Virus record (IMG/VR): IMGVR_UViG_3300020034_000027 | Span: 1-48,225 of that record | DNA from: a virus | Length of the DNA: 48,225 nt | Direction: 5' to 3' (one strand) | Shown here: piece by piece, positions 4,839 through 47,622 of the stretch | Layout of the letters: each line of letters opens with the position of its first letter | Numbering within the stretch: position 1 is the stretch's first letter | Notes under the pieces: model-generated | The model's input: only the letters and a program-made list of their open reading frames with translations | What the model was told of the DNA's origin: nothing | Database searches by the model: none | Made by a program: the position numbers and the translations under genes

Positions 4839-5186
4839 TTAGCAGACGACAGTAGGTGGAACTCGAGTTGGTAAATAGTAAGGGAACTTAAATCCTAACT
4901 TCTTGCACAAAAAGACGTTATAGCCTCCCACTCGCGAGGTGCCGTATTTCCTAGAGTATTCGACCCAAACGGCGAATTCATCTTTCTCAGATGTTGCTGG
5001 CCGCATCTCAAGTAAGCGCCGAGGTTTATTTGCTCTAGTAAAAGCGGACCCTTCTCCAGCGAAGTGGGAGATAAGACGGTGGTGTAAAAATCGGCTGAAC
5101 CCAACATAATACGTCCCTCTTTCGCAGGCGAGGACGTAGACCCAGAACGTCGTCTCCTTGAGTCGTTTTGCGGTAGCGAGGAGCAC
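4839..5186 (-). CDS. GIY-YIG nuclease domain protein
   Basis: 115 residues. Residues 14-30 carry the family signature in the form WVYVLACERGTYYVGFS (VYVL then YYVG), followed by basic residues and H/F positions of the small UvrC/YhbQ-type GIY-YIG fold. A catalytic glutamate would be the one in EFAVWVEYSRKYG. The start chosen is GTG at 5186, inside palindrome 5184-5208. These domains cut DNA as homing or repair nucleases. As a free-standing gene inside a head operon it may be a homing endonuclease cargo or a packaging-related nuclease; the latter is inference. Confidence 0.75.
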   Translation of the reverse strand: MLLATAKRLKETTFWVYVLACERGTYYVGFSRFLHHRLISHFAGEGSAFTRANKPRRLLEMRPATSEKDEFAVWVEYSRKYGTSRVGGYNVFLCKKLGFKFPYYLPTRVPPTVVC

Positions 5187-5208
5187 ATTATTAAAATTTG
5201 ATAAAGTT
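5184..5208. promoter_or_regulatory. 25-bp palindrome, copy 1
   Basis: Matches the repeated element with arms AACTTTAT and ATAAAGTT around a 9-bp centre YAAAWTTTR. The left arm here is CACATTAT. It fills the gap between the response-regulator stop codon (5208) and the GTG start (5186) of the GIY-YIG gene. Confidence 0.85.
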
Positions 5209-5654
5209 CAATGAGGCGTTATCGGATTAATACCTAACACTCTCAACAACTTAAACAATCCCTTCAAAGTCGGTGTCGATGGCTTAATCGCGAAGACTAC
5301 AAGGCCAAACAAACTAGCCTCTTCAATAATCTGTGGAGTAACTAAACCCGAGAAAACCACTACTGGGGTATCTGGACGATACCTACTAATTGCTTTCATT
5401 ACCTCTTTACCTCCCACCATCGGTAAGTTATAATCAAGTATCACCAAATCAAATTTCCAGTTAATATCCATCACTCTATCCACTGCTTCCTTACCATCCT
5501 TCGCTACTGCTGGCACACAATTGTAACCAGTCATCACCGTAGTGAGCAGATTCGCAAACAAGAGGTCATCCTCCACTATAAGTATCTCCCTCGGTTTGGA
5601 AACCAGCTTCAACCACTCCGCGTGAGGGTCTCTGATTTGTTTTACTTCTTCCAT
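5208..5654 (-). CDS. Receiver-only response regulator (CheY-like)
   Basis: 148 residues from an ATG that overlaps the upstream stop. The frame extends further upstream, but the overlap and loss of similarity argue against a longer start. A complete receiver domain spans about residues 22-140: acidic pocket E28-D29-D30 (ILIVEDD), phosphoacceptor D74 (VILDYNLP), Ser102 (VVVFSG) in the conserved Thr/Ser position, and K124-P125 (FAIKPS). There is no output domain. Host receivers of this kind signal through phosphorylation by histidine kinases. Inside a phage late operon this protein could tap, drain or mimic a host two-component pathway; that role is inference. Confidence 0.88.
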   Translation of the reverse strand: MEEVKQIRDPHAEWLKLVSKPREILIVEDDLLFANLLTTVMTGYNCVPAVAKDGKEAVDRVMDINWKFDLVILDYNLPMVGGKEVMKAISRYRPDTPVVVFSGLVTPQIIEEASLFGLVVFAIKPSTPTLKGLFKLLRVLGINPITPH

Positions 5655-5971
5655 AACTCTACAACTTTCACTATAAATGCTCCCCCAGCCGCTGTCCCTA
5701 CCCAAATAAAAAACTTCAGAGGTATACCAAATATAGTTTTTCTAGTCGACTCAATTAACTTCTCATGCTCTACGCTAATATTATGTACAATAATAACCTT
5801 CTCAGCCAACCACCGGGTCTCTTTCCTCAAAATCGAAATGTCTTTCCTCAACCCCGTCAGCGTCAGCGCCATTAACCTAGTCGGCTCATCCAGTTTCGAC
5901 AACGTAAACGGGTCTATGTCCGGTACATCAGCTTGAAAGTCAGGCATTGCTTGTAACTCTTTTAATTCCAT
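5642..5971 (-). CDS. Small protein with coiled coil and C-terminal membrane segment
   Basis: 109 residues. Residues 25-85 are charged and helical, probably coiled coil. Residues about 87-104 (PLKFFIWVGTAAGGAFIVKVV) form one membrane segment, with a short basic cytoplasmic-type end (ELWKK). The gene overlaps the response regulator start by 13 bases and follows the lipoprotein gene by 10 bases. Such proteins in late operons are often annotated as holin- or spanin-associated, but nothing here proves a lysis role. Confidence 0.75.
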   Translation of the reverse strand: MELKELQAMPDFQADVPDIDPFTLSKLDEPTRLMALTLTGLRKDISILRKETRWLAEKVIIVHNISVEHEKLIESTRKTIFGIPLKFFIWVGTAAGGAFIVKVVELWKK

Positions 5972-5981
5972 TTGTGACCAT

Positions 5982-6248
5982 TTACTTAGGTGGGGGTTCG
6001 TAACCTCGTAAAGATATCTTAATCAAAGGTATCCAGGCGTTACTGTGAGTAATTTCCAAGTCACCAGAAGTAATCTGGTCACCACTCTTAACTACATTAG
6101 TACCCTTAACAACAGTACTACTAAACTTTCCGGTCACTGTCGCATCAACTGTCTTCCAACTTCCGTTGGGAATAGCGTTAGCCAGGTCCATCTGGATGGA
6201 AGCACATCCAGACAGACCAAGCAGGCAAAGTAGAAGCAAAGCTCTCAC
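5982..6248 (-). CDS. Small predicted lipoprotein
   Basis: 88 residues from a GTG start at 6248, one base after the upstream stop, with an AAGAAAGAG ribosome site inside the end of the previous gene. The N-terminus MRALLLLCLLGLSGCAS is a lipoprotein signal with lipobox LSGC, so Cys15 would become the lipidated residue. The mature part is a short beta-rich domain ending in a Pro-rich YEPPPK tail. A longer frame extends to 6329 but would bury the signal. It may be an outer spanin-like or superinfection-exclusion lipoprotein. Neither is supported beyond the signal and its location next to a secreted Ig-like protein. Confidence 0.8.
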   Translation of the reverse strand: MRALLLLCLLGLSGCASIQMDLANAIPNGSWKTVDATVTGKFSSTVVKGTNVVKSGDQITSGDLEITHSNAWIPLIKISLRGYEPPPK

Positions 6249-6249
6249 G

Positions 6250-6648
6250 TTACTCTTTCTTAGTTGTGAATGGAACGGGAGCGCCAGTCCCCGAAGTGGC
6301 CAGCGGTGGTCGTGACTGGTCCTGCACAACCACGTTAACCGTCACCGTAATCGAGACCTTATTCGGCGAAGTCTGCAATGACATCACATACTGGGGGCTA
6401 GTCGCTGACCCAATAGTATTAGTAGCCTTAACCGAGTAGCTTCCAATCGTCTCAGGCCCCGTCGTCAACGTGAGAGTTGCCCCATCAGCTACCTTAACAG
6501 AATCCTTAAACCACTGAAAAGTGGGAGCAGGGTTACCGTCGGAGGTTGCTGTCAACGTAATGCTCGTCCCCGGTGGGAAACTCTCCCCAGGCGGCTGTGC
6601 GAACACAGAGGCAGTTAAAAAAACCAGACCAATTATTAGTTTCTTCAT
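6250..6648 (-). CDS. Secreted immunoglobulin-like domain protein
   Basis: 132 residues beginning with a classical signal peptide, MKKLIIGLVFLTASVFA, cleaved probably after FA. Residues 25-95 match an I-set/Ig fold: PPGTSITLTA, then FQWFKDSVKV with the core Trp, then GSYSVKATNTIGSA with the Tyr motif. The ATG at 6648 is preferred over GTG 6660 because it places the signal peptide at the N-terminus and has AAGGAG 11 bases upstream. Ig domains on phages usually sit on virions and bind carbohydrate. One with its own export signal, followed by a lipoprotein gene, may instead act in the infected cell envelope. Confidence 0.8.
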   Translation of the reverse strand: MKKLIIGLVFLTASVFAQPPGESFPPGTSITLTATSDGNPAPTFQWFKDSVKVADGATLTLTTGPETIGSYSVKATNTIGSATSPQYVMSLQTSPNKVSITVTVNVVVQDQSRPPLATSGTGAPVPFTTKKE

Positions 6649-6652
6649 AAAA

Positions 6653-7588
6653 TTAAACACTCCTTCCGAGCGCAGCTTGCAAAGTTTGAACTCTATTCTT
6701 GAGTAGTAAATACCTAGACTCTAACCCTCCAAGTGAAACAATCCCAAAGAACGAATTGAAGTGGCTAGAGGAATAACCAACCACTCCTTCTTGGTTATAC
6801 CCCATGAAATAAACTTCATTCGTTGAACAGTTATCGTTAATACACAAAGTACCGTTTCTATATTCACCACGTTGACCCATAGACACAAAACTGTATGGAG
6901 CTTCCAGTGGGTCGCCTCCAGAGAAAATTGTCCTAGACCTTGACAGATAGAGAAAGCCTAACGGGTCAAAAACAGGATACCCCTCAGCAACTCCAATGAA
7001 AGCGTAGTCCTCTACGTTAGAATCGCCTTCCTGCACGTAAATCTTCCCATCGCCATAGAAGGCAGCAAAGTCAATATCCAGTGCACCATCAAAGCAACCA
7101 TGAGACCAAACGTCAGTCGGAACGAAAGCGTTCCTGTCATAGATAACAAGACCGTGTTCAGCCGGGTCTAAATCAGACCCAAGTACTCCCGAGCCCAACG
7201 CAGTATTAGTCCCCAGTCCTTTCCACCCAGTCGCCTGTGCGTACGTAGGCGCTCCCTTCTTACTATAACTCCAGGAATGTCCACTTGAGAATCTCTTACC
7301 CTTAATCAGCCCAGCAGTCTCATTACTGCCAAGAGCGGGACAGAAATCAAGCATGTCATTCCAATTCCCATCAGTCTTACACCCCAAGACAAACTCATTA
7401 TACGCTGTCTGTGCCTCAGCGCTAATCGTCGCACCAGCTCCGGTAATTCTATCAAAGTAATCCTGAGCCTCCGAGTCAACTTCGACTTCACCGACCGCAG
7501 AGTCAGCAAGCAGAGCAATCCGCTTGCTGACTCCATTCGTCCTTTCAAACAGGCACCTTTGCCCGCCGCTGTTGATAACGAATCTCAC
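6653..7588 (-). CDS. Virion-associated or adhesion-type protein, unknown family
   Basis: 311 residues from a GTG that overlaps the previous stop. Residues 40-90 hold a compact segment (DYFDRITGAGATISAEAQTA, then NEFVLGCKTDGNW) that I recognise as recurring in phage tail and receptor-interaction proteins. The rest is Gly-, Tyr- and Phe-rich beta sequence with repeated YGDGKIY and FMGYNQEG-type strands. It is probably a tail or surface protein. Confidence 0.7.
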   Translation of the reverse strand: MRFVINSGGQRCLFERTNGVSKRIALLADSAVGEVEVDSEAQDYFDRITGAGATISAEAQTAYNEFVLGCKTDGNWNDMLDFCPALGSNETAGLIKGKRFSSGHSWSYSKKGAPTYAQATGWKGLGTNTALGSGVLGSDLDPAEHGLVIYDRNAFVPTDVWSHGCFDGALDIDFAAFYGDGKIYVQEGDSNVEDYAFIGVAEGYPVFDPLGFLYLSRSRTIFSGGDPLEAPYSFVSMGQRGEYRNGTLCINDNCSTNEVYFMGYNQEGVVGYSSSHFNSFFGIVSLGGLESRYLLLKNRVQTLQAALGRSV

Positions 7589-7986: not shown

Positions 7987-7987
7987 G

Positions 7988-8516: not shown

Positions 8517-10160
8517 TTATATTTTAGTTAAGTTACCTACAGGTCCTAAGTTCAATTTTAAGTGTTCCTTGTTAACCTTCAAAGCTTTCTCGTTCGTAAA
8601 CTGCTGTGCCTTAGCAAAGATGGCCGGGTAGTAAGTTAAATCGTCATGAATAACCAATCTCCTCATGCACTCAATCATATGGTCATTCTTGTCTTCCGGG
8701 ACGTTGTCCTTATTAAAGTAATGATTGTACATCTCCCACCTCAGTCTGACGCAGCGCTTGTGAATACGTACCTTCCTCTTCCGCTGACCAAGCAACTGTT
8801 GAGTCTTCAAAATCGCATCCTCCTTACGCTTGCTGGCCGGAGTCAGCGACAGCTTCTCCTCGGCAAACATATCAGCGTATGTCTTCCCACTTCCCTGGTC
8901 CTCATTCCAAGCGGCTGGTTCACACAGCGCATAGTGAACTCTCACTCCCACCATCCTTTTCTTAATCGCCGTCGCCAGTGAATCTCTCTCCGGATGCACC
9001 TCATCCTTCCCACTAATCAGTCCCTTCTGCCAAATCTCGTCGTAGAAATCAATATCACCATCCTTCGATATCGCTACGAACAAAACGGCATGAGGAGTCT
9101 GCGGATGCGTGTCAATCGAATACGCAACCATATAGTCCTGCAGCGGTGGTCTATCCGGAAACGGCCAGCTACCAATAGCTTCCACGTCATGCGCCACAGG
9201 ACTATACTGACTAAAGACTAATCTCCCATACGCTAACGGAGTTCCAGCTCGTCTCGAAGCCCTCTCGTCCTCTGGTAACTGACTGAGATAGAGTTCTTTA
9301 TCCTCTTCAGACAGAGTCGGATTATCATCCATCGTCGCTTCAAACCACCAGTACAAGTGGGGCTGATTCTTCGCGTTCTCCAACATCTCATTATACATCC
9401 AAACTTCCTTAATCGGGGTGAGTAGCCACCAGGAGAACCCACCTCTATCAATCAGTCCTCTCGAAACCGCTGACCACAGTTCTTTCATCACCGGCTCATC
9501 AATGTGAATGAAGTCCCAATCACTCGACTCGAAGCTAGCCGGAGCCTGTTTGAAACTCTTAACCGTATCAAAGTAGATAATAGACTCCCTAGGCTGGCCA
9601 TTCACATCAGAAATAACCGTCACCTGGTCGATAATACCCTTCTCGTTCCGATGTCTCTTCTTAATGAAGTCCTCCGGCAGGAACTCAATGAACTTTCCCT
9701 GTCTCTCCAGGGAGTCATCATTCGTAAATATCTCCTTAATCTTATCCCAGTCCTCTCCAACCACTAGACCCTTCACTCCATGTTTTGGAATTCCAAGAGT
9801 TCTAAGCGGGTGGCCGACGGGAAAGAACGGCCGATACCCAATCAGCCAGCAGCAGTCTTCCACCACTCCCAGCGTCGACTTACCGAAGCGGTTCCCACAA
9901 TACCCAGCCCGCCTCTTCTTATTCGACTGCTCGAAGAACTTCATCTGTTTCGGCGAGGGCACAAAGTACCATAACTTCCTCTTCCTATAGTTCTCTTCTC
10001 GAATAGCCTCCAGTCTGAGCATCTCCTTCTTAACCTCAAATATCTCTTTCTCCACCGCCTCAGCGGACAAACCTCCCTCCTCCACATTATCAAAATTTGA
10101 TAAAGTTTTCGGAGCCTCCTCAACAGGCCAGGCAGCCCTCCCACCACTAAGAATAATCAT
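8517..10160 (-). CDS. terL: Terminase large subunit
   Basis: 547 residues. ATPase domain: Walker A GYCGNRFGKST at about residues 86-96, and Walker B plus catalytic carboxylate in FIHIDEP near residue 220. The C-terminal RNase H-like nuclease begins with an acidic strand in YSIDTH near residue 349 and has further acidic motifs after FYDEIW. The protein drives ATP-dependent DNA translocation through the portal and cuts the concatemer. Its ATGA start overlaps the TerS stop, so the two are coupled. A 25-bp palindrome lies inside codons 18-26, which is unusual for a coding region. Confidence 0.93.
   Translation of the reverse strand: MIILSGGRAAWPVEEAPKTLSNFDNVEEGGLSAEAVEKEIFEVKKEMLRLEAIREENYRKRKLWYFVPSPKQMKFFEQSNKKRRAGYCGNRFGKSTLGVVEDCCWLIGYRPFFPVGHPLRTLGIPKHGVKGLVVGEDWDKIKEIFTNDDSLERQGKFIEFLPEDFIKKRHRNEKGIIDQVTVISDVNGQPRESIIYFDTVKSFKQAPASFESSDWDFIHIDEPVMKELWSAVSRGLIDRGGFSWWLLTPIKEVWMYNEMLENAKNQPHLYWWFEATMDDNPTLSEEDKELYLSQLPEDERASRRAGTPLAYGRLVFSQYSPVAHDVEAIGSWPFPDRPPLQDYMVAYSIDTHPQTPHAVLFVAISKDGDIDFYDEIWQKGLISGKDEVHPERDSLATAIKKRMVGVRVHYALCEPAAWNEDQGSGKTYADMFAEEKLSLTPASKRKEDAILKTQQLLGQRKRKVRIHKRCVRLRWEMYNHYFNKDNVPEDKNDHMIECMRRLVIHDDLTYYPAIFAKAQQFTNEKALKVNKEHLKLNLGPVGNLTKI
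10083..10107. promoter_or_regulatory. 25-bp palindrome, copy 2 (inside terL)
   Basis: Left arm CACATTAT, right arm ATAAAGTT, centre CAAAATTTG. It lies within the first 26 codons of terL and encodes part of a KTLSNFDNVE stretch, so the element is kept although it constrains protein sequence. Confidence 0.88.
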
Positions 10161-12621: not shown

Positions 12622-12646
12622 AACTTTATCATAATTTAATAAAGTT
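12622..12646. promoter_or_regulatory. 25-bp palindrome, copy 3 (divergent region)
   Basis: Both arms are perfect (AACTTTAT and ATAAAGTT), with centre CATAATTTA. It lies 83 bp upstream of the solitary minus-strand gene and about 350 bp upstream of the first early gene, in a position to act on either side. Confidence 0.88.
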
Positions 12647-14121: not shown

Positions 14122-14146
14122 AACTTTATTAAAATTTAATAATGTT
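14122..14146. promoter_or_regulatory. 25-bp palindrome, copy 4
   Basis: Left arm AACTTTAT, right arm ATAATGTT, centre TAAAATTTA. The ATG inside the right arm (14142) is a possible start codon of the following small frame. Confidence 0.88.
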
Positions 14147-14270: not shown

Positions 14271-14493
14271 AGAAGAAGTTATTAAACTGGTTGCAATGTA
14301 TCTTGTAGCCATCGGACCATCTGGCTCGCCCTCTAGCTATGTGTGGATGGCGATTGATAAGAACATGGAGGATGTTTACCGTCATAATCTAATCATCGGT
14401 AACCTTGAGAGGCAAGGAATACTAACTAATAAGAACCACTTTCTCAAATTGACCGAGAAGGGTTTGGCGATGCTAACTAGGCTGCTAACATGA
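14263..14493 (+). CDS. Small winged-helix-like early protein
   Basis: 76 residues from ATG 14263. The order is helix (MTKEEVIKLVAMYLV), helix (PSSYVWMAIDKNM), recognition-like helix (VYRHNLIIGNLERQGIL), then a beta hairpin (FLKLTEKGLAML). This is the layout of a winged-helix DNA-binding domain. The frame is open upstream to a TTG at 14146, but that part looks non-coding. The next gene overlaps its stop by 4 bases. Confidence 0.65.
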   Translation: MTKEEVIKLVAMYLVAIGPSGSPSSYVWMAIDKNMEDVYRHNLIIGNLERQGILTNKNHFLKLTEKGLAMLTRLLT

Positions 14494-14675
14494 AAATAAT
14501 CAAAGTCAGAATATCCAACGCTAATTATAAACGCCTGGCTGAAGTTGCTAAGGCTTGGGGATTACAGAAAGCAGGTGATTATTTAGCAGCCTTGATAAAG
14601 ACTAAATTCAAAGGAGAGAAAGAAAGTGCTTATTTTAAGAGAGTTAACGACATTGTTAAACAATATGAAAACTAA
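14490..14675 (+). CDS. Ribbon-helix-helix-like small protein
   Basis: 61 residues. An N-terminal strand (KIIKVRISNANY) is followed by two helices (KRLAEVAKAWGL and KAGDYLAALIKTKF), the arrangement of Arc/MetJ-type ribbon-helix-helix DNA binders, which act as dimers on palindromic sites. It overlaps the previous gene by 4 bases. It is therefore one candidate for the factor that reads the 25-bp palindromes; this link is inference. Confidence 0.65.
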   Translation: MKIIKVRISNANYKRLAEVAKAWGLQKAGDYLAALIKTKFKGEKESAYFKRVNDIVKQYEN

Positions 14676-16006: not shown

Positions 16007-16180
16007 ATGACAGCTAAACAACGCGCATTAATACCAGAGCTGCTCGCTAAGTACAAACGGGAGACTCGTCGAACTGGCCAGTCAATTCCCATGCCGAACA
16101 TTAATAATCTGCATCACTACTACTTCGTCAATCAATTCACCGTTCGCCCTCACTGGCGTAGTAGGCCGGTGAGACGATAA
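16007..16180 (+). CDS. 57-residue basic early protein
   Basis: The ATG follows the previous stop by one base and the frame ends in TAA at 16178-16180, inside the first bases of palindrome 16179-16203. The peptide is basic and aromatic (KRETRRTGQSIPMP, LHHYYFVNQF) with an Arg-rich end. Gene packing supports it. Confidence 0.6.
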   Translation: MTAKQRALIPELLAKYKRETRRTGQSIPMPNINNLHHYYFVNQFTVRPHWRSRPVRR

Positions 16181-16203
16181 CTTTATCAAAATTTAATAAA
16201 GTT
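16179..16203. promoter_or_regulatory. 25-bp palindrome, copy 5
   Basis: Both arms perfect (AACTTTAT and ATAAAGTT), centre CAAAATTTA. It fills the gap between the stop at 16180 and the ATG at 16205. Confidence 0.9.
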
Positions 16204-19734: not shown

Positions 19735-19738
19735 ATGT

Positions 19739-19879
19739 ATGGGCAATTCCCCACTTTTTCCCGATTGGTTGGTGAATCTCTGGTTAACAGTGGAAGGATT
19801 CTTTTACTTAACAATGCTGGCGCTCGGTCTCATCCTGTTGACGCTGGGAGCGATAAGGTTATTCAGGAGGAAGAAATGA
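19739..19879 (+). CDS. 46-residue single-span membrane protein
   Basis: ATG 19739 to TGA 19877-19879. Residues about 19-40 form a membrane helix (EGFFYLTMLALGLILLTLGA) closed by a basic RLFRRKK end, the topology of a cytoplasmic C-terminus. Its stop overlaps the ATG of the next gene (ATGA). An overlapping frame starting four bases earlier is rejected as a shadow. Role unknown; small-holin or regulator type. Confidence 0.68.
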   Translation: MGNSPLFPDWLVNLWLTVEGFFYLTMLALGLILLTLGAIRLFRRKK

Positions 19880-20280: not shown

Positions 20281-20302
20281 CCTTAGTATCCTAGGGCTAT
20301 AA
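20165..20302 (+). CDS. Small helical early protein overlapping the previous gene
   Basis: 45 residues starting MSDEELELMVKKFR, with AAGGA 8 bases upstream. A longer frame from 20045 (85 residues) also has an AAGGAG site. Helical, Lys-rich, ending LSILGL. It overlaps the preceding gene by 116 bases in a different frame, and its stop touches palindrome copy 6. Confidence 0.6.
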   Translation: MSDEELELMVKKFRTARESPQILKSLLAGKTKAAQKKPDLSILGL

Positions 20303-20326
20303 ACTTTATTAAAATTTGATAATGTT
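20302..20326. promoter_or_regulatory. 25-bp palindrome, copy 6
   Basis: Left arm AACTTTAT, right arm ATAATGTT, centre TAAAATTTG. It runs from the upstream stop codon to the ATG of the Cas4-like gene at 20327 with no spacer on either side. Confidence 0.9.
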
Positions 20327-24042: not shown

Positions 24043-24342
24043 ATGTCGAAAATTTCAATATACAAAAATCCTGCTTACTATCTTTCCTATGGTAAAGACG
24101 ACCCGCTGCTGCTTGATGTAGAAGTGAAGATAATCAAGCAGGAAGTAGGTTTCTCAGTGGAGATAATTAAGTGTATCGTCCACCAGAGCGAAGAGTTTGT
24201 ACTCTTCCTCATCCAGAATATGTCTACCGATGGTATGAACATAGTCTCAGAGAGAGTTAGCTCTCTTCTGGTAGCAGAGTTACTTCCCTCCCTCTTTACT
24301 CTCTTCTACGCTGGCGAAATACAAGTCGATGAAACCAAGTGA
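24043..24342 (+). CDS. Small hypothetical protein upstream of ParB-methyltransferase
   Basis: 99 residues, start directly after the previous stop; overlaps the next gene by 14 bases. Beta strands in the first half, helical and hydrophobic in the second (LLVAELLPSLFTLFYAGEI). No family recognised. Confidence 0.7.
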   Translation: MSKISIYKNPAYYLSYGKDDPLLLDVEVKIIKQEVGFSVEIIKCIVHQSEEFVLFLIQNMSTDGMNIVSERVSSLLVAELLPSLFTLFYAGEIQVDETK

Positions 24343-25825
24343 ATTAGTTCCATTCGAGTCTATCCTCATTGAAGACCGGCTGAGGGTTTCCGTCAACAGC
24401 GTGCCAGAGCTGGCTGCGTCTATCCTGGAAAATGGACTCTTCCACCCTCCAGTGGTCGAGGAACAAGCGGATGGTAAGTATCGCCTGCTCGCTGGCGGAC
24501 GAAGGATGGCTGCTCTAACTTTATTAAAATCTGATAAAGTTCATGGAGCGGATTTCCAGTTGATACCAGTCACCATCTTCAACCGGCTCTCGGATGACCA
24601 GCGAATAGTGGTAGAGCTAGAAGAGAACATCCAACGGGAGAGCATGACCTGGCAGGAGACGGTCATTGGCATCTACAAGTATCACAAAGCCAAGAAGCGA
24701 ACTGCTCTCATGGAGGGTGATAACTGGACACAGAGCATGACTGGTAAGTTGCTGAACATGGTTCAAGCTCAAGTCAGCACAGCTATAACCGTAGCCGAGT
24801 TGCTACTCAACAAAGATGAAGAAATCACAAAAGCGGAAAACCTATTCGACGCCTGTAAAGTACTCGCTGGAAGAGACCTTGACCTTATTCAAGCCGAACA
24901 AATGCGACGAATCCATCTTCGACGTGCGGAGCAAGATGCTAAAGGAGGTCGACCGACTAATGGGAGTACCGAAGGACTTCTTGCTCCACGCGACCGAGGA
25001 GAGGTCAGCGTTGGAGGCCAGGTCAATCTGTCAGAAAATCTCGGAGGCACAGGTTCGCAAGCTGATTCGTTACAAAAGCCTGGTCGACTACGATTCACGC
25101 CGTCAGATGTGGCTGCCTTCTACCACCACGGGTCTGCACTTGAACTGCTTCCACTGCTTGCTAAGACTACTCTCATAAATCACATCGTCTGCGACCCACC
25201 TTATGCTATCAACATGGATAACCTCTCGCAAGAGAGCGTGGAGAGAATACAAGATACGCACCAGGTCGAGGATAACCTTCGACTCATTCCTGAATTTATC
25301 CGCGTCGCTTATGACACAATTGCAGAAGACGGATTCCTCTGTATGTGGTACGACCTTGACCACCACGAAAAAATCGCTGGGTGGGCGAAGGCCGTCGGCT
25401 GGCGAGTGCAGAGATGGCCTCTCACATGGTGTAAAACAACGTCTTGTTCGAACCAGCAATCGCAATGCAACATTACTAAGTCAACTGAGGTATGTTATTT
25501 CATGCGGAGAAGTGAAAAGTCTATGCTTAAAACCAAGCAGTCTAAGAATTACATACTTGCTCCGGCTGTCAGCACAGCAACTCACCCTTTCCCTAAACCG
25601 TATGAAGTTTGGCGGTATCTTATTGAATCTGTCTCGACCGAGGGTCAAAATGTTGTTGACCCATTCGCAGGCGAGGGGAGTTGTCTTGCCGCTGCTTTCA
25701 AACTTGGGAGGATGCCAATTGGTATTGAACTGGATAAGAAACATATCGCTAGCGGAGTCAACTACGTAGCTGAGCAGATTAACCAAAGAAATATTCTCGA
25801 CGATGTCCTCACTCCACCTATTTAA
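24329..25825 (+). CDS. ParB-like domain fused to a DNA methyltransferase
   Basis: 498 residues. Residues 1-125 are a ParB N-terminal domain: LRVSVNSVPELAASI, LLAGGRRMAAL (the GxRR nucleotide-binding pattern) and ELEENIQRE. Residues 270-490 are a beta-class amino-methyltransferase: motif IV DPPY at about 289-292, then the AdoMet motif VDPFAGEGSCLAA near residue 443. The enzyme would methylate adenine N6 or cytosine N4, with the ParB part giving target choice or CTP/DNA binding. Such fusions are known in phages. One 25-bp palindrome lies within the ParB-coding part. The methylated sequence cannot be told from this window. Confidence 0.88.
   Translation: MKPSELVPFESILIEDRLRVSVNSVPELAASILENGLFHPPVVEEQADGKYRLLAGGRRMAALTLLKSDKVHGADFQLIPVTIFNRLSDDQRIVVELEENIQRESMTWQETVIGIYKYHKAKKRTALMEGDNWTQSMTGKLLNMVQAQVSTAITVAELLLNKDEEITKAENLFDACKVLAGRDLDLIQAEQMRRIHLRRAEQDAKGGRPTNGSTEGLLAPRDRGEVSVGGQVNLSENLGGTGSQADSLQKPGRLRFTPSDVAAFYHHGSALELLPLLAKTTLINHIVCDPPYAINMDNLSQESVERIQDTHQVEDNLRLIPEFIRVAYDTIAEDGFLCMWYDLDHHEKIAGWAKAVGWRVQRWPLTWCKTTSCSNQQSQCNITKSTEVCYFMRRSEKSMLKTKQSKNYILAPAVSTATHPFPKPYEVWRYLIESVSTEGQNVVDPFAGEGSCLAAAFKLGRMPIGIELDKKHIASGVNYVAEQINQRNILDDVLTPPI
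24517..24541. promoter_or_regulatory. 25-bp palindrome, copy 7 (inside ParB-methyltransferase gene)
   Basis: Arms perfect (AACTTTAT and ATAAAGTT); the centre TAAAATCTG has one change from consensus. It lies in coding sequence about 190 bases from the start, with no gene beginning after it. Confidence 0.85.
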
Positions 25826-29753: not shown

Positions 29754-30365
29754 ATGTACCTCTTCCTAGACACAGAAACCAGCGACCCAGTAGCCCAGCG
29801 GGTAGTTCAGCTATCCGCTATTTTAACCGATAAAGATGGGAATGAACTAGAAGTTCTCGACCATCTTATCTATCCGGACGGGTGGTATATCTGCGACCGC
29901 TTCGTTGGGTATCATGGGATAACACAGCAGATGTGCTATGACCAGGGAGTGCCAATGTTACAAGTCCTGGCTAAGTTGAACCTTATGCTGGTCAAGACTA
30001 AGCTGATAATCTGCCACAACTTCACCTTCGATTCTTCCAGGGTGCTGAATGAATTTAACATCTACACTATCCCATCTCCCTTCACTAAGATGGCCGGCTT
30101 CTGCACGATGAAAGAGGGAACTCCGATTTGTCAACTCCCTGCTTCACGCGGCTCTGGCTACAAGTGGCCCAAGCTGCAAGAGATACACAAGCACTATTTC
30201 GGAGCAGAGTTCGAAGGAGACCACAACGCTCTCTACGATGCTCGTGCTACCAAGCGGGTGTTCTTCGCCATGAGACCACCAGTCCCGGAAAACCTGCCAG
30301 TAGTCGAGTCTGCCAAGCCGCCAGAAGCAGACGATTTCAGCTCAGAAAACATTATTAAAATTTGA
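29754..30365 (+). CDS. DnaQ-like 3'-5' exonuclease
   Basis: 203 residues. DEDDh motifs: FLDTETS (residues 4-10), CHNFTFDSSRV (near 87-97) and GDHNALYDARAT (near 155-166), with His and Asp in the last. It would proofread or trim DNA, perhaps with the polymerase. The last codons run into palindrome copy 8, so the protein ends in a motif-encoded ENIIKI. Confidence 0.85.
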   Translation: MYLFLDTETSDPVAQRVVQLSAILTDKDGNELEVLDHLIYPDGWYICDRFVGYHGITQQMCYDQGVPMLQVLAKLNLMLVKTKLIICHNFTFDSSRVLNEFNIYTIPSPFTKMAGFCTMKEGTPICQLPASRGSGYKWPKLQEIHKHYFGAEFEGDHNALYDARATKRVFFAMRPPVPENLPVVESAKPPEADDFSSENIIKI

Positions 30366-30372
30366 TAAAGTT
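30348..30372. promoter_or_regulatory. 25-bp palindrome, copy 8
   Basis: Left arm AACATTAT, right arm ATAAAGTT, centre TAAAATTTG. It covers the end of the exonuclease gene and stops directly before the ATG at 30373. Confidence 0.9.
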
Positions 30373-35300: not shown

Positions 35301-38300
35301 GAGCAGAGTAGAAGTAGTCTTCATACTTACTCTGCCCGACTCCCATTGCTTTCTTGAACAAGTCACCAGCAAAGCTGTGCAACTCACCGCCCCCACCCTT
35401 CGGTAGTGAACCGCCCATGTCCTTCCTAAAAGTGGGCAGATTGGAGACGAAGTTACCTTCGTCGAACCTGGAAGTCCGGTTCAGTCCCAAAACTGCCTGA
35501 AGATTGTCGTCCGCTAATTTACTAACATGCTTGCTCATCAAGTTAGCAAAATCACTAACCCTCTTACCTGCCTCTGGCAATAACATATGACTGATACTAG
35601 GATAGTCACTCCCGAAGTACTTCTTGATACTCTTCGTAAATGCCTGCATAACCCTAACGAGGGGCATTGGCAAGTACTTATACCAGTCTGGCGATTGGTT
35701 GTTGATTCTATAGTGTTCCGCACTGGCCTCCATCAACCCCGCTGCAAACTCGTGCGCGACTTTCTCCTTATAACGTGGGTCGGCTTTATCGAACTTAGTT
35801 CCCGCCAGGTACTCCGGGTCGAACTGCTCACCGAGCCCGAGTTTTCGTTTAATTTCGGAGAAAATAGCCAGCCGGTTACCTGCACCCAAATCATTACTGC
35901 TGGAAATGAATGCGGTGTAGGCTTCTGGGTCATTAAGCCGAACGTCGTCAATGGCCCCGTGAGTCAACTCATGCGAGAGCTTTGTAACTGCGTCGGACAG
36001 AGTTTTAATATGCTCGACTGACAACTTAATATCCCTCGTATCTAAGCTGATTTCTCCAACGAGACCGGGGTCACTAAAGCGGCCTTGGGTGATGATTCCC
36101 CTTTCACCCTTGATAGCGTCGAGAAAATTGAGCAGCGGCTCCACATCCTCTCGTTTGCCACCCACGACTGAGTTGAGGATTTCTTCCTCAGTCATCTTCT
36201 TGCGACCGTACCTCTTCGTCCGCTCTAGCCGCAGGGTGTTCTCTAGAGAGGTCTGCTTATCCGCGTCATAGAGACTGAAGAGTTTCCTCACTTCTGGTGA
36301 GGGATTCGAGATGTCGTAGAGGCGAGCAGTGATGTTTGTCTTCGGCTTTCCATTCTCACGAAGGATTGGAGAACCGACCTTTCTATCTTGTGTTTGGTCA
36401 GGCCCCCTACCTTCATAGACGGATTTGTGTTCACCAAAATCCACCCGCTGTCCCTTGCTCCTCGTCAGCTTCTCCGCAATCGCAGGTAGACGCTGGTCAT
36501 AGGCAGCACGCATTCCTTTCTCCTGTGGAATGATATACGTCCCTCCCGGTCCGCCAGGGGAGACACCATCCATACGAATCTGGTCATGACCCTCCGTCAT
36601 CATCGCCGTCGGTGCGTCGGAGATAGCAATGTACTTCGCACCAATCTCTCTAGCGTGTTGAATGATGGCTTTTACTGCTAGAGATTCATAATGTTCGAGA
36701 AGTGGATGTTGAGAGGTTTTTGGCGAATCCTTGCCCATGTTCTCTCTCTGTTCAGGAGTTAAAGTAGAAAGTGCGGCTTCTCTCTGTTCCCTACGACTTT
36801 CTATCTTTTTCTTTTCCTGTGCTAACCGTTGTGCCCAATCACCTTGTATCTCAAAGGCATGAAAAACCTTATCGCCTGCGGAAGCACCTGAAATACGAGT
36901 GGCATGTTCCGCTGTTAGTATCTCTTCATGCCCACGAGCAGAAAAGAGAACGTTTTTGTCGGAGTCGCCAAAGTGAGGACCTTTGAATAAAACTTCTTCT
37001 CTGGCGGGGACACCAGTGTATTGTTCCCCAGCAGGACCTTTTCTAGGTTTAATTTCAGGTATTTGCTTAACTGGAACCCGCCCCAAAATATCTACCGCGC
37101 GGGGCATCTTGTCGAGTGGCTTTGGCTCCACGTTATACCGGCCAGTAGCTGCGTCGCTATCACCTATAGGATGATGTCCCATTCTATCTGAGTCTATAGC
37201 GCGATGAAGTTCCTCTGCCAATTCTAACGCCGGAGATGGCAGGTCGTCGTGCAGGACTTTTTTACCTTCTCTAGTTTGATAATGCGTAATGTTACCATTG
37301 TCATCGTAGATAGGAGTGTAACCCTCTGTCTCGAGTCGATGTTCAAATTGACCTAAATTCTCTTGAGCACTGGGACCGGGCAGCAGTTTCTTCGTCTCAA
37401 TCTCCGGTGTATTCTCCCTTATCCACTTGGTAAACTCAGCCGCTTTAATCTTGCCGGTCGGCTTAGAATACTGTGCATGTAGAGCGTCATAGTCAGTTCC
37501 CTTAGGAATAACTTCCCACTTTCCATTTTTTTGAATGTATTGCCCTGTGGGAGAATCAGCGGGTGGCTTAGGTAGAGTCGCCTTAAACTCATCCGAAAGC
37601 GGGTCTCCTCTCCCCTGGTGAATCAGCTCATCGATTTGAGTATATCCAGCAGCCTTCGGACCATACTCAGGTCCATAAACTGTGTACATATACACCGGCT
37701 CAACTTTATCAGATTTTAATAAAGTTTCGATTCCACGGTCCTTATAATGTTCCCAGAGAGCGGAAGGACTCCAGTCCTTCACAGCCTGCACTAACCCCTT
37801 CGCACTAATCTCAGCGTTCGCATCAGTCTGGAATCGGGGACCCTTACTCCCTTTCGCCTCCATTGACTTATTAAACATATCCAACACATGATTTGTAAAC
37901 GACAGCTCATTCTGGCCATCGTCCATTGGAGTAAACAAGGATTGCAACTTCTGCAAACCATCGTTCCTAACTCTCCACTTAATCACATCTTCATTCTTCT
38001 CGGTAGAGATAACATCATCACCAATGGCCATATCCCCGAGAGACTTAAGAACCGCTCGTTCGTTATTATCCCCAAGCACCACCGCCGCCTTCTCAGTCCC
38101 ACGTTTGTCTCTCAATACCGCTGCAAACCCGCTCGGCTTAACCGGCTTAGTGGGAGTACCGTAACCAAGCAGCATCCCGAGTGAGTTGGCCTGAATCGCA
38201 CCTTCGATGACTGGCGGACTAGTCATACCCTCATTATAGAGGTAGAGATTCCCGTTCGTCGGGCTCGTATACGACATATAACCAGGCATTGTCGTGTCAT

Positions 38301-40832: not shown

Positions 40833-40857
40833 AACTTTATTAAATTTTGATAATGTT
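40833..40857. promoter_or_regulatory. 25-bp palindrome, copy 10
   Basis: Left arm AACTTTAT, right arm ATAATGTT on the plus strand, centre TAAATTTTG. It lies directly upstream of the ATG (40832) of the minus-strand internal protein gene. Confidence 0.9.
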
Positions 40858-43439: not shown

Positions 43440-44979
43440 CGACTTGGTCCTCCACTTTGATTAGAGAGAGTAATCTTAAATCGTCTACATTATCATCTTC
43501 CTCATTACTCCATTCGAATCTGAACCGAATATACTTTCCAACTCCGATGGCACGAATGAAGAAATTGAGTGAACTATCTGTGTCTCTATCGAGACTTTTG
43601 GGAGTACTCCAAGCGATTGGTGCTGATTGATTCGGCCGGGTACCGATGGAAAGCTGGATGTCCGGCTCGCCAGTTCCAACGTATTCCAGTAGTGCTTTGG
43701 TGATTTCATTGACTTGTCCGAAGGTTGCGAAGTAGAAATCGAAAGTTTCAATACGATGGTCGAAGGAAGTCTCATCCGCTTTCAGAACAGCGTCATCTGA
43801 CTTCAAAATCACTCCGTCAGCAGCGGCGAAGGGCTTGAACACGACGGGAAAACCCTCATTAGGGTCATCAATTACGTCATCAACATCGTCAGGGAACTCA
43901 GTATAGTCATCAATGACCTTATACCCACTCATCGCCACGAGTGGTGTGTCCATCCAAGCAGTAATTCCCTGTGGTTCTCTCTCACTCCACTTTTTTTCCT
44001 TGTAATTGTACACAATTGACCAGAGTGAGTCATCTGTCCTAGTATAAACCCAGAAAACCTGAGTCTTTCTCGTATCCAAGTAGCCACGAACACTCATATT
44101 CGCGACTATTTTGATGTTATTGATGAAACGTTGGAAAATAGGCTCACCAATTGACACCAACTGAAGACCATTCAACATATAAATGTCATCCTGCGCGATA
44201 AAGAAGTCAACTTCCCCTGCTCTCACTACTGCATTGTGAAAAATGTTACCAATGCCAGGGATGAGTGGCTCAAATCGGAACCCGCCAGGAAACCCAATGT
44301 CCTGTGCTATCCAAATACAATTCTCCGAGTAGCTAACCGGACTTCCTCTCTGATAAGACAGCCCGGTAATCTGTCTCGAGTCAGGTTCGAGCTGAAAAAA
44401 GTCTGCTTCACTCTCATTAGGATTAACTACAAAATCCTCTGGTGAATCTCTATCACTCCACCTAAACATCGCCAGCTCATTGTCGAGAAAGTCTCCCACA
44501 GCTCCCAGGAAAACATGCCCAGTAGCGATAATTCCATACCTCGCATACGGTGCTCCCTCAATCGGAGTGACTAGTTTCCGCTCGATTTTAACATAAGGAG
44601 ATTGCAGCTTGGTAACATACAAACAATCATACCACTGAATAATAACATAAGGGTCGCTGCTATCAAAGAACCCTTCATAAATCGGAGTTACTTCAAATAA
44701 CTCCGTCTCGAAGTTGAACCAGTAAACACTCGTCTTAGAGAACGCATAGAGATTGTAGAACTTTCTATTAGCTAACTGGTAATAACCGAAGCTAACAATC
44801 TTATCGCCAGTCTCCAATTCCAAGTCCTGAAATATTGAATACCCCTTACTAGCAAACAACCTTCCCAGCCGCGGCTCTATGTTGTTCAAAAAGAAGAAGA
44901 CGAGGATATCCGCGACTACGTCCGGGTTATACGTATCCACTCCCTCATTCAACTTGAACTGCTTTGGCTCGTGAATCAT
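43420..44979 (-). CDS. Tail nozzle-like beta-propeller protein
   Basis: 519 residues, almost wholly beta. Repeated blades of Trp/Tyr-containing strands (KTSVYWFNFETELFEV, GFPGGFRFEPLIPGIG, TQVFWVYTRTDDSLWSIVYN) fit a propeller as in the P22 gp10/T7 gp12-type tail nozzle. It follows adaptor and fibre-like genes, as in podovirus tails. Confidence 0.75.
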   Translation of the reverse strand: MIHEPKQFKLNEGVDTYNPDVVADILVFFFLNNIEPRLGRLFASKGYSIFQDLELETGDKIVSFGYYQLANRKFYNLYAFSKTSVYWFNFETELFEVTPIYEGFFDSSDPYVIIQWYDCLYVTKLQSPYVKIERKLVTPIEGAPYARYGIIATGHVFLGAVGDFLDNELAMFRWSDRDSPEDFVVNPNESEADFFQLEPDSRQITGLSYQRGSPVSYSENCIWIAQDIGFPGGFRFEPLIPGIGNIFHNAVVRAGEVDFFIAQDDIYMLNGLQLVSIGEPIFQRFINNIKIVANMSVRGYLDTRKTQVFWVYTRTDDSLWSIVYNYKEKKWSEREPQGITAWMDTPLVAMSGYKVIDDYTEFPDDVDDVIDDPNEGFPVVFKPFAAADGVILKSDDAVLKADETSFDHRIETFDFYFATFGQVNEITKALLEYVGTGEPDIQLSIGTRPNQSAPIAWSTPKSLDRDTDSSLNFFIRAIGVGKYIRFRFEWSNEEDDNVDDLRLLSLIKVEDQVDGAPEE

Positions 44980-45587
44980 AGAGTCGGGATTCTAACTACC
45001 TGGAAGATGCTCTCAAGCGGATTGTTCCGAATATTAACTGACATTGTCCCAGACCCAACGGTTAGTTCGTAGCGAATAGAAAGAGTCTGACCGGCAGAGA
45101 TATTGAATAGTCTATTAATAGCCAGGTCAGCATCGCTAACATCCGCTCCTCTGCTCAGCGTAGTCCTAGCTGCCAGAGAACCATCTAAATAGACCTTCAT
45201 AATGTGCATAATCGATGTCGGACTCGAGCTGGCATCCTCCTCGATTGTCAGCGCAGACATCAACATAAACAAGCCAGAATCAGGAGCAGTGAACTTAAAA
45301 GTACTAATACTATAATCACTCCCACTATCCAAATCCTCAGTATCAAACTCTACATTAACCTCCGACGCTCCAGCTACTACTGGCTGCGCTGTGCTCATGG
45401 TAGCGATGACTCTCGTGCGACTCAACAACGAGTTAAACTGCGCTTGCGGGCCAGCCAACTCATCACAAAGATACGCCTTAATCTGCCTAATTGCATTGTC
45501 CAGGATACTAATCGGCTCAGTCGCTCCATTTGGCGTGGCCGGGTCTAACGCACTAATGCCATCACCATCTGTATAATTGTAAGACAT
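44976..45587 (-). CDS. Fibre or appendage protein with jelly-roll-like domain
   Basis: 203 residues. The N-terminus (NYTDGDGISALDPATPNGA, then ISILDNAIRQIKAYL) is a stretch I recognise from phage appendage proteins. The C-terminal half has jelly-roll-like strands (SISTFKFTAPDSGLFMLMSA, IMHIMKVYLDGSL). It overlaps the nozzle gene by 4 bases. Confidence 0.7.
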   Translation of the reverse strand: MSYNYTDGDGISALDPATPNGATEPISILDNAIRQIKAYLCDELAGPQAQFNSLLSRTRVIATMSTAQPVVAGASEVNVEFDTEDLDSGSDYSISTFKFTAPDSGLFMLMSALTIEEDASSSPTSIMHIMKVYLDGSLAARTTLSRGADVSDADLAINRLFNISAGQTLSIRYELTVGSGTMSVNIRNNPLESIFQVVRIPTL

Positions 45588-45588
45588 G

Positions 45589-46893
45589 TTAGTTAAATAT
45601 AAAATTAGGAATACCTACAACCACTTTCTTTCCACGAAGAGCTTGAACCACATGTTCAACAACTTGTAAAACACTACTAGCAGTAAAATCCACATTAATA
45701 ACGTCTTCCGTCGGATTGCTGCCGTCAAAGTCTGATTTGGTTATGGGAATGCCAATTCTGTAAGAAGCCCCGATTTCCAAAGCGTCACACGAGCAAGCGA
45801 CAGTAACTTCAGTATAGATAAAAGTAAAATCTCCGGCTCCTCTTAACTCATATCGAGCGGTTTGAGATATTCCAAGAGTAGGTGTCTGTCTAGCTAACGC
45901 ATCAGCCTCCATGTCTTCAGAAGACAGAATAGTGTTCACGCTTCCTACACAATTAATAGATTGTCGACCAAAACCTGAAACGGTTGGACAACATCCTAAC
46001 CCTGTCACTGTTTTCTGAATGTTACTAACAGTTGCGTCAGAAGTATAAACAGGTTCTAACTGAACAACCAAATCTTCCAACGGAACGTAGATAGCCGGAG
46101 GATTACCGTTAGCGACGCCAGAGTTTCTTTCCGGTATGGTTCCACTTCCGTCCGGTCTAGTCCGGCTAGTTGTTAGCTGCTCAGTGTACGCTCCAGTAAG
46201 AATGTCATATTCTCTCCACTGGCTCCAAAGGTCGGTAAAAACTTCTCGACCAGCTTCGTAAACCCAAGACCCAACTCCATATCCAAATATCGCTTGTACG
46301 TGTATATCCAGGGTAAAAGTATGTCCTAAAGTAATACTAAAACTAGCAGGCACTGCGGAGGCTGCGTTATCTATACCTGCAAACCAAGGAGTGCTACCAG
46401 GGTCTATGTGAGCTCCGCTCACGTTAACCCAGGAAGCACTAATAAAAGTATAATGCGCGGTGTTCGTTGCGTAGTCGATACTATTTAACGCACAACTAAC
46501 AGAACCACTTGCTATCTCGTTGAAAAAGTAAAAAACAGGAAACAATCCACTCTGCCCACCAGAACCTGGATAAAGTGTCTCACAAGCGTTGCTAGCAGAA
46601 GTTTTGTCTAGGGCTAAAGAGCCAGTAATATCCTGTCTTCTATACCTTCTAGGCGGAATAGACGGAGTTAAGAACTCATCAAACCCAATAAGGGTGGCTG
46701 ATTTATCCCGACTAACGAAAGACGTCTCAATAAACGGCTGAGTGCCAAAAATTAACGGAGGTATCTTAGGAACCGGCGGAGTCGGAGGGAAAACCGGGCC
46801 GGGTCCAGGAGATATCAAATCGTTTTTACCTGCGACTTCTGCCGGAGTCTTACAGTTAGCCGTAACCGGTAGTGCTACCAGACATTGTGTCAT
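45589..46893 (-). CDS. Large beta-rich virion protein, unknown
   Basis: 434 residues. A Pro-rich N-terminus (PGPGPVFPPTPPVPKIPPL), then long beta domain with many Thr, Ser, Gly and eight or more Cys. It could bind receptors or decorate the tail. Start overlaps the adaptor stop (ATGA). No family recognised. Confidence 0.7.
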   Translation of the reverse strand: MTQCLVALPVTANCKTPAEVAGKNDLISPGPGPVFPPTPPVPKIPPLIFGTQPFIETSFVSRDKSATLIGFDEFLTPSIPPRRYRRQDITGSLALDKTSASNACETLYPGSGGQSGLFPVFYFFNEIASGSVSCALNSIDYATNTAHYTFISASWVNVSGAHIDPGSTPWFAGIDNAASAVPASFSITLGHTFTLDIHVQAIFGYGVGSWVYEAGREVFTDLWSQWREYDILTGAYTEQLTTSRTRPDGSGTIPERNSGVANGNPPAIYVPLEDLVVQLEPVYTSDATVSNIQKTVTGLGCCPTVSGFGRQSINCVGSVNTILSSEDMEADALARQTPTLGISQTARYELRGAGDFTFIYTEVTVACSCDALEIGASYRIGIPITKSDFDGSNPTEDVINVDFTASSVLQVVEHVVQALRGKKVVVGIPNFIFN

Positions 46894-47594
46894 TCTTGCG
46901 AAGTGTTAGGATTCATCATGATTTGACTATCCCAAGCAGCCAACCCAGCTAGATAAGACTTAACTTCCTCGTCTTTATAAGGATACGAAGAGTCTAATTT
47001 TAATGCAAACATCAGCTTCTTTAACGCTAACATGTGCACTACATCGGCCGCATAGTCCAAAAAGAAATTAGTGTCAGTACTATTCGCCATAGGGACAATC
47101 CAAATATGCAAATGGATTAACATCTCCTTCGCAGTAGTAGGCTTAGGGTAAAGACCTATCTTATTGCCCATTATGAACGCGATAAGGTCTGGCCGGAAAC
47201 TGTCTTCAATGGTAAATCCAATCTGCTGCTCGTCGTAAATTTGTGAATTGTCCGTATTCCTCGACCGTTCTAACTTCCTCCGCCTCGTCTGAAGCTGAGA
47301 ATACGTCATTATCTTAATCGGTTTACCCTGAATCTCGTCACTTGTCCTAGCTTGCTGAAGCGAAACCACGTCCCTCAAAAGCCCAGCACAAACCTCTCCC
47401 AAATCTACGTAAAGTTCGTTAGCCGGATAAGTAAACTGAGCTAAACTTTCGGTGTGAGAGAACGCATGGTCACGTTGAAGATAGATGACAGCATCGTTAA
47501 TAGCTGCTTTAGCTTCAGCTAACACATCCACTTCAGTCAACGGTCTATTAACCGTTCTCATCAACCTAGTATACGCAGATAAAAAATCAGCCAT
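46890..47594 (-). CDS. Head-tail adaptor-type protein
   Basis: 234 residues from ATG 47594; the upstream extension to 47660 is rejected since palindrome and terminator lie there. Helical, with the LAEAKAAINDAVIYLQRDHAF and EVCAGLLRDVVSLQQ stretches seen in many podovirus adaptor (T7 gp11-type) proteins. It would join portal to nozzle. The palindrome ends three bases before its ATG. Confidence 0.75.
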   Translation of the reverse strand: MADFLSAYTRLMRTVNRPLTEVDVLAEAKAAINDAVIYLQRDHAFSHTESLAQFTYPANELYVDLGEVCAGLLRDVVSLQQARTSDEIQGKPIKIMTYSQLQTRRRKLERSRNTDNSQIYDEQQIGFTIEDSFRPDLIAFIMGNKIGLYPKPTTAKEMLIHLHIWIVPMANSTDTNFFLDYAADVVHMLALKKLMFALKLDSSYPYKDEEVKSYLAGLAAWDSQIMMNPNTSQE

Positions 47595-47597
47595 AAA

Positions 47598-47622
47598 AAC
47601 TTTATTAGATTTTAATAAAGTG
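47598..47622. promoter_or_regulatory. 25-bp palindrome, copy 11
   Basis: Left arm AACTTTAT, right arm ATAAAGTG (one change), centre TAGATTTTA. It lies between the capsid-operon terminator (47625) and the ATG of the adaptor gene (47594). Confidence 0.85.

Follow-up and report, generated by a model that had tools for sequence, protein, structure and literature searches.

Noc is a ParB-family CTPase with a helix-turn-helix (HTH) whose specific sites are scattered around the replicon (PMC4331003). On a mobile element, plasmid RK2, the sliding clamp KorB uses CTP and loads onto DNA at palindromic OB sites (PMC11790492). Fusions of a ParB CTPase to an N6_N4 methyltransferase are reported to be frequent in phages, where an anti-defence or host-interaction role is no more than suggested for them (PMC12704722). 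Dispersed 17-bp palindromes, described as of unknown function, occur in Cluster O mycobacteriophages (Corndog, Firecracker), and the L5-type stoperators of Cluster A mycobacteriophages are asymmetric and oriented with transcription (PMC4351075).

The window, that is, the whole stretch of DNA analysed here (48,225 nt), comes from a virus of bacteria and looks complete because it carries a 130-bp terminal repeat (4-133/48096-48225); tRNA and Rfam scans found nothing. Eleven copies of a 25-bp palindrome are present in it:

Site 1, 5184..5208, no strand, 25 bp, CACATTATTAAAATTTGATAAAGTT; overlaps the start of leftward 4839-5186 (GIY-YIG-like) or 4895-5188
Site 2, 10083..10107, no strand, 25 bp; 5' end of terL, in-frame GTG 10085 inside; aligns with sites of relatives G006 and G007
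Site 3, 12622..12646, no strand, 25 bp; divergent region between leftward and rightward arms
Site 4, 14122..14146, no strand, 25 bp; early rightward arm, ATG 14142 inside
Site 5, 16179..16203, no strand, 25 bp; ATG 16205 starts 1 bp after
Site 6, 20302..20326, no strand, 25 bp; abuts ATG 20327 of the exonuclease gene, where G007 also carries a site
Site 7, 24517..24541, no strand, 25 bp; within the parB-methyltransferase gene, encodes TLLKSDKV; a G007 site aligns with it
Site 8, 30348..30372, no strand, 25 bp; abuts ATG 30373, close upstream of the primase
Site 9, 37702..37726, no strand, 25 bp; within the gene for a 2436-aa protein
Site 10, 40833..40857, no strand, 25 bp; abuts ATG 40832 of leftward gene 39333-40832; G007 site 22195 lies in the same interval
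Site 11, 47598..47622, no strand, 25 bp; intrinsic terminator on one side, ATG 47594 of an SU10-adaptor-like gene on the other

All copies listed by the initial annotation were recovered at their coordinates, and its claim that the repetition is not due to chance was borne out by 100 dinucleotide shuffles of the genome, which gave 0 copies. When the window genome was scanned with a symmetric matrix, the weakest of the 11 sites scored 38 bits and the next-best position 3.3, with no intermediates. The sites are dyads of odd length, and their alignment to the symmetric matrix agrees with the T-to-A change that had been noticed in one arm of six copies, never in both: it falls at position 4 or 22 in 6/11 copies and at the two together in none. 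Seven copies had been said to touch or contain a start codon. Their positions are as claimed, but the start at 14142 is doubtful because the reading frame there has only 42 aa. Three sites had been placed inside genes, and those at 24517 and 37702 are truly intragenic. In contrast, the site at 10083 contains an in-frame GTG of terL (10085), and the terL reading frame of relative G007 closes a short way upstream of the site that aligns to it; the window site therefore need not be intragenic and is probably a further start-codon-associated site. As judged by eye, most genes of the window phage are missing an obvious Shine-Dalgarno (SD) sequence, so that its lack after a site is not special.

Relatives were located via their capsid protein and then searched de novo for each phage's own palindrome; for distant GenBank relatives a pattern scan was negative at first and the de novo search was required. 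Each of about 20 related phages has an odd-length 25-bp palindrome of its own, in 4-18 copies per contig, with a phage-specific sequence and a constant length and dyad. The sites thus survived the check on conservation, since their architecture is kept, and site sets are present even in relatives without a recognisable match to the window head genes. Orthologous positions include one inside the parB gene, one before the primase (G007, G002, G018, G019, G020 and Mel-JY34; compare site 8) and one before the SU10-adaptor gene, where the order terminator, site, ATG is found in four genomes (window, G006, G007 and G002). The gene for the 2436-aa protein also holds a site in G007, G002 and G018, in a different alignment column from site 9. 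An exact scan of IMG/VR for the window 25-mer gave 0 matches, and a degenerate scan gave 9 loci, mostly single copies on AT-rich contigs. A prophage search of GTDB genomes for the host returned one distant MAG contig only. Site similarity across phages follows the DNA polymerase tree best; similarity of the recognition helix adds weakly to it (partial Mantel 0.23, P 0.047, one of many tests). The apparent site families of G003, G005, Kuura and phiGD20-1 were rejected, as they resemble coding triplet repeats, and that of ctMlz233 is ambiguous.

We consider it probable that the 25-bp palindromes act as parS/NBS-like sites and are recognised by the ParB-methyltransferase that the phage itself encodes. 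This candidate reader has the following features:

24329..25825, + strand, ParB_N - HTH - N6/N4 DNA methyltransferase fusion, proposed site reader
24383..24634, + strand, ParB_N domain, residues 19-102, with an AGGRR nucleotide-binding box; ENIQR box just after
24725..24814, + strand, helix-turn-helix, residues ~133-162, WTQSMTGKLLNMVQAQVSTAITVAELLL
25175..25750, + strand, N6_N4 methyltransferase domain, residues 283-474, DPPY

The ParB_N domain matches PF02195 above the cut-off, and within the nucleotide-binding boxes (G-x-R-R and E-N-x-x-R) residues G56, R59, E99, N100 and R103 are invariant over 19 homologues. Profile positions 3-210 match Noc (7ng0) over the CTPase fold and HTH with E 5e-25, Noc being the best match of the N-terminal half among solved ParB-family structures. 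Residues 19-183 of the window protein align to ParB (4umk), similarity of the profile to KorB is weak (E 0.002), and the profile is also homologous to the methylases DpnA and CcrM. The putative methyltransferase domain matches PF01555 (E 2e-22) and shows DPPY in the alignment. Pfam HTH_ParB was hit only below threshold, and only in LS06. The nucleotide-binding boxes, a central HTH and multiple palindromes on the same replicon are features of the ParB/Noc type. PHROGs and Pfam scans of the large window proteins, other than the 203-aa protein at 44976-45587, turned up no ParA ATPase, the cognate partner in ParABS partition.

Among relatives with sites, the ParB-like protein has an HTH where its gene is covered. 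VS-ABTNL-3 has ParB_N and the methyltransferase but neither the HTH nor a site set; in Kuura, where the whole ParB-like protein is missing, there is nothing beyond coding-type repeats. As a forward prediction, phages were chosen by ParB homology alone and then searched for sites. Desulfofustis phage MD01 (LS06/MD01) yielded 9 sites (RCTATGTCCCAANTTGGGACATAGY), the unrelated Vibrio phage VneS_S3 14-16 copies of KTTTACTAWTAGTAAAM in 40 kb, and a gut scaffold GGTGCGACATCGTGTCGCACC ten times; Mel-JY34, in whose protein an HTH-like stretch is kept, yielded 5 weak sites, intergenic in 5/5. De novo search found no significant site family in the ParB-HTH contigs G032 and G035, and no clear one in prophage phiGD20-1 and scaffold H14, which both have ParB. 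In Cluster O mycobacteriophages there is an orphan ParB whose match to Spo0J extends through the HTH, and this protein may explain the 17-bp repeats of Corndog-type phages.

The reader would be an orphan (ParA-less) ParB nucleotide clamp in which an N6/N4 DNA methyltransferase replaces the C-terminal dimerisation domain. One dimer would bind per site, with each of the two HTH domains reading one 12-bp arm, as suggested by the symmetry, the lack of base-pair covariation and the phyletic co-occurrence. On the model of ParB, Noc and KorB, the clamp would close after loading and slide off the site. Window sites recur about every 4 kb across the whole genome and are spaced more evenly than random (P 0.003), and even spacing holds across 15 genomes (combined P 3e-11). 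Such spacing would let a clamp of modest sliding range cover all phage DNA and so bring the methyltransferase to it in cis, all along its length. Because of this genome-wide spacing, cis delivery appears to us the most likely use, although it is the least certain part of the proposal and is put forward tentatively. With the same reserve, the sites might be pictured as loading points, set out over the genome, of a CTP-gated methyltransferase clamp, so that self DNA is methylated in cis over its full length and the host spared. Methylation would identify phage DNA as self and shield it from host restriction, or would label it for replication or packaging.

A KorB-like effect on neighbouring genes may be an addition to this or the main use. 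In the latter case, the same ParB-methyltransferase would bind the sites chiefly to control transcription, as a roadblock, or as a clamp that represses or activates the operons starting there, with methylation secondary. KorB is itself a CTP clamp repressing at a distance (PMC11790492), sites tend to lie close to gene starts (median distance 14 bp versus 245 at random), several orthologous sites stand ahead of the same genes, and the arrangement at the SU10-adaptor-like gene recurs. However, window sites are also more even than random gene boundaries, some lie deep within genes and no KorA-like partner was seen. Moreover, an intergenic preference is expected anyway because the 25-mer contains stop codons in most frames; under the main proposal, adjacency to start codons would follow from the need to place such a stop-rich sequence in a compact genome that offers few gaps and in which most genes show no SD sequence. 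Altogether, transcription control as the main job is possible but rather unlikely. The preference for gene starts and the location of site 24517 and its G007 counterpart inside parB also fit gene control and are points against the main proposal.

Since most site-bearing phages share a replication module, the sites could be read by a different protein inherited together with them, which we regard as improbable. An example of such a reader would be an RHH-like protein (19735-20280 or 14490-14675) acting as phage-wide repressor or nucleoid protein. RHH-like proteins do adjoin sites, and by eye an RHH-like frame ahead of the exonuclease gene also occurs in G002, G019 and G020, but G007 has none there although its sites are nearly identical to those of the window. 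Apart from one sub-threshold hit, Pfam and PHROGs give no RHH family match, and such a reader does not predict sites in unrelated phages selected by ParB. Promoters of a phage-specific transcription machinery making leaderless mRNAs are very unlikely: sites stand immediately ahead of an ATG, once right after a terminator, but they are symmetric and not directional, as T7-like promoters would be, and among the proteins scanned neither an RNA polymerase nor a sigma factor of the phage was recognised. The -10 box proposed by the initial annotation is not conserved, relatives having unrelated sequence where the window has its GATAAT-like stretch, and in the SD-using LS06 intergenic sites lie upstream of the SD; the sigma70-type -10/leaderless reading was rejected. 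A virion RNA polymerase in the 2436-aa protein was also discarded, with no PDB, Pfam or PHROG support. RNA hairpins masking start codons, also proposed there, are refuted by arm pairing: the arms are able to pair, but complementary pairs (1560/2064) are fewer than for randomly paired half-sites (1636.5 +/- 12.6), and perfect arms number 0/172. Compensatory pairing and an Rfam family are missing, and folding energies lie within shuffles, not significantly better (z -1.5 to +0.3).

If the sites belong to the ParB-methyltransferase fusions, which are common in phages and for which a role is so far only suggested (PMC12704722), a testable prediction follows for about 20 genomes. If true, viral genome modification would join segregation, division and plasmid gene control among the tasks of CTP-gated clamps, the long-standing question of the Corndog repeats would have a candidate answer, and, more broadly, dispersed palindromes together with an orphan ParB would make up a way of coating the genome that is general in lytic phages and has largely gone unrecognised. 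The family also documents, in nature, how a DNA-binding specificity has drifted many times with the length of the sites, their copy number and their spacing over the genome retained.

Among known systems, L5-type stoperators share conserved dispersed sites close to gene boundaries. The initial annotation had proposed phage-wide operators comparable to them; what stands is a genome-wide set of dyad-symmetric candidate protein-binding sites, kept in about 20 relatives, with ParB among the proteins it listed, whereas stoperators in the strict sense are not supported, given that symmetry. Stoperators are bound by the lysogeny repressor in temperate phages, and SPbeta SPBRE, phiC31 CIR and the P1 C1 operators are likewise dispersed operators of lysogeny repressors; the genes scanned included neither a recognisable integrase nor a recognisable lysogeny repressor, though a diverged repressor may have escaped. 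Noc/NBS of Bacillus resembles the phage system, as predicted from sequence, in combining a ParB-family CTPase, an HTH and dispersed sites. Noc sites are shorter and chromosomal, and Noc has a membrane and division role and no methyltransferase, whereas the phage protein carries one and its 25-bp sites lie on the phage genome. KorB differs in being a transcriptional repressor with a KorA partner and only weakly similar in sequence, and its OB sites have 13 bp. That 25 bp exceeds known parS, NBS and OB lengths is an observation against reading by the ParB-methyltransferase. Cluster O phages share dispersed palindromes, many of them intragenic, an orphan ParB-like protein and no obvious temperate lifestyle, but their repeats are 17 bp, more numerous and denser at one end, and their ParB is without a methyltransferase domain. 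The reported phage fusions have a domain pair identical to that of the window protein, and recognition sites are not named for them in the part of that report available (PMC12704722). The fusion proteins were thus already known; what appears to be new here, as far as sequence comparison goes, is the HTH in many of them and the family-wide dispersed palindromes matched to an HTH-bearing ParB-methyltransferase.

A re-scan of the window recovered the eleven 25-mers of the initial annotation at exactly its coordinates, with the consensus AACTTTAT-Y-AAA-W-TTT-R-ATAAAGTT. The claim that they exceed chance also held, as no copy appeared in 100 dinucleotide shuffles, and with a symmetric weight matrix the weakest site reached 38 bits and the best other match 3.3 bits. 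A single T-to-A change (position 4 or 22) is present in six of the eleven copies and never at both positions together. The genome is probably complete, at about 48.1 kb, since the ends of the record share a near-identical repeat of 130 bp; on the circle, the spacing of the sites has a CV of 0.42 (P 0.003). Neither a tRNA nor a match to an Rfam family was found in the window.

Most relatives are metagenomic and have no host. Two of them came from a search with the window's major capsid protein. Contig G007 (48,210 bp, capsid 61% identical) carries 12 copies of a drifted version of the element, with the consensus KACTTTATCGAAWTTCGATAAAGTM, and contig G006 (13.5 kb, capsid 67% identical) carries four. 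The window and G007 are collinear, and the majority of sites lie at orthologous places:
before the exonuclease gene
near the primase gene
directly after an intrinsic terminator, before the SU10-adaptor-like gene
between 40860 and the giant gene
at the terL 5' end, in the same columns of the coding alignment
inside parB, in the same columns of the coding alignment

An unbiased search of the more distant relative G002 returned a 25-bp palindrome of its own, GTTTTTATAACT-N-AGTTATAAAAAC, and contigs G018, G019 and G020 each have their own as well, again at shared places, e.g. before the primase gene. The exact sequence of the site is therefore not conserved. Across the relatives, where the initial annotation had proposed to look for the sites, their length, dyad, dispersion and several of their positions are kept.

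Other genes of the window were recorded on the way, the last two by eye:
19735-20302, two genes in different frames that share most of their span, one for an RHH-like protein and the other for a small protein with the C-terminus DLSILGL; G002, G019 and G020 have the same overlap, and G007 retains only the second gene
5208-5705 (-), CheY-like receiver domain of a response regulator (PF00072, E 1e-15) inside the structural gene arm
6250-6660 (-), Ig-like domain protein among structural genes
4839-5186 (-), GIY-YIG-like endonuclease among structural genes
Most gene starts, also judged by eye, are without an obvious Shine-Dalgarno (SD) sequence and several have 'aataac' or similar ahead, which suggests that the host makes little use of SD sequences.

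Among the proteins common to the site-bearing phages is the candidate reader of the sites:
24329-25825 (+), protein with ParB_N and N6_N4 methyltransferase domains
In site-bearing phages, an alignment of relatives places a ParB/KorB-like helix-turn-helix (HTH) between these domains; the HTH is missing from the homologue of VS-ABTNL-3, a Vibrio phage with no site set. A profile of 19 homologues matched the CTPase fold and HTH of Noc (7ng0, profile positions 3-210, E 5e-25), as well as ParB/Spo0J, the methylases DpnA and CcrM and, weakly, KorB, and the alignment of the window protein alone to ParB 4umk extends across the HTH. The ParB nucleotide boxes are retained (G56, R59, E99, N100 and R103 invariant), and no ParA was recognised. 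With polymerase distance removed, site and recognition helix were weakly correlated (Mantel 0.23, P 0.047, one test among many).

GenBank phages were then searched with the ParB part alone. Desulfofustis phage LS06-2018-MD01 (LS06) proved to carry nine 25-bp palindromes, RCTATGTCCCAA-N-TTGGGACATAGY, and the same search turned up L081 (MT835532), a gut scaffold with ParB and HTH in which ten GGTGCGACATCGTGTCGCACC palindromes are dispersed over 28 kb. By accident it also supplied a positive control, a Listeria contig in which the canonical parS, TGTTTCACGTGAAACA, is present. Vibrio phage VneS_S3 is unrelated and was chosen since its ParB+HTH protein matched that of LS06; it carries KTTTACTAWTAGTAAAM in 14-16 copies over 40 kb, and the controls reached about a quarter of the objective. 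A ParB-HTH-methyltransferase profile gave 48 loci in IMG/VR, and a de novo palindrome search on the whole contigs of the strongest matches found 25-bp palindromes, 4-18 copies each, in G023 to G031, G033, G036 and G037, and no significant palindrome family in G032 and G035. Since several of these contigs show no match to the capsid, portal or terminase of the window phage, the sites track the replication and ParB module, not the virion module. The Mel-JY34 protein contains an HTH-like stretch, and the genome showed five weak sites, all intergenic and one before the primase gene; Kuura, which lacks the ParB-methyltransferase, showed only coding-type triplet repeats. L172 (ON073792, Yong-DA), with five perfect GTTCAGACGTCTGAAC copies, is recorded as a phage but may be a plasmid, as it has ParA, ParB, replication protein and polysaccharide genes and no named structural genes.

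Beta-class methyltransferases often dimerise, and the methyltransferase domain, a beta-class match, could form the dimer interface of a clamp. Going past the co-occurrence of sites and ParB, we infer that this clamp would load at a site, slide and methylate, with the whole genome in reach. A serious rival is that the same protein at the same sites acts mainly in transcription control, as KorB does, and the sites are indeed found near gene starts (median distance 14 bp, against 245 at random). Against this, most genomes above 44 kb have their sites spaced more evenly than at random (Fisher's combined test over 15 genomes, which are not fully independent, with G007 omitted as too near the window, P 3e-11), and in the window the spacing is likewise more regular than that of random gene starts. 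Even spacing favours a role needing the whole genome in reach over control of a few promoters.

The leaderless promoters with a -10 box suggested initially were rejected: the sites have dyad symmetry, relatives do not retain the supposed -10 and, in the SD-using LS06, intergenic sites lie upstream of the SD; the adjacency of sites to ATG in the window stems from short gaps in a genome with few SDs. The proposed hairpin hiding the start codon fails, as RNA pairing should make the arms covary and complementary pairs (1560 of 2064; 172 sites, 20 genomes) fall below the 1636.5 (sd 12.6) of randomly paired half-sites, with folding energies inside the shuffle range. Given this deficit and the absence of perfect palindromes (0/172), each arm behaves like a half-site of its own for a dimer. 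The avoidance of arm identity may come from instability of perfect palindromes or from a functional polarity. Single positions of the sites in G033 and G028 are heterotypic nearly every time, as if the sites were polar.

Dispersed sites for phage ParB-methyltransferases were not found described in the open-access literature. In a contig found by its DNA polymerase (G004, L029-L031), a non-palindromic element with the core CTGCCCCCGTCA is present about 19 times, counting both strands, and is nearer to stoperators in style. ParB, Noc and KorB are known clamps that load at palindromes and slide in a CTP-linked manner (PMC12704722, PMC11790492). Palindromes of the form TGTTCGG-N3-CCGAACA are dispersed in Cluster O mycobacteriophages; their describers left them without an assigned function and judged a role of the phages' ParB-like protein in genome stability unlikely (PMC4351075). 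In Firecracker, 30 palindrome copies were regained de novo in 41 kb, and gp94 consists of ParB_N, without a methyltransferase, followed by an HTH alignable to Spo0J.
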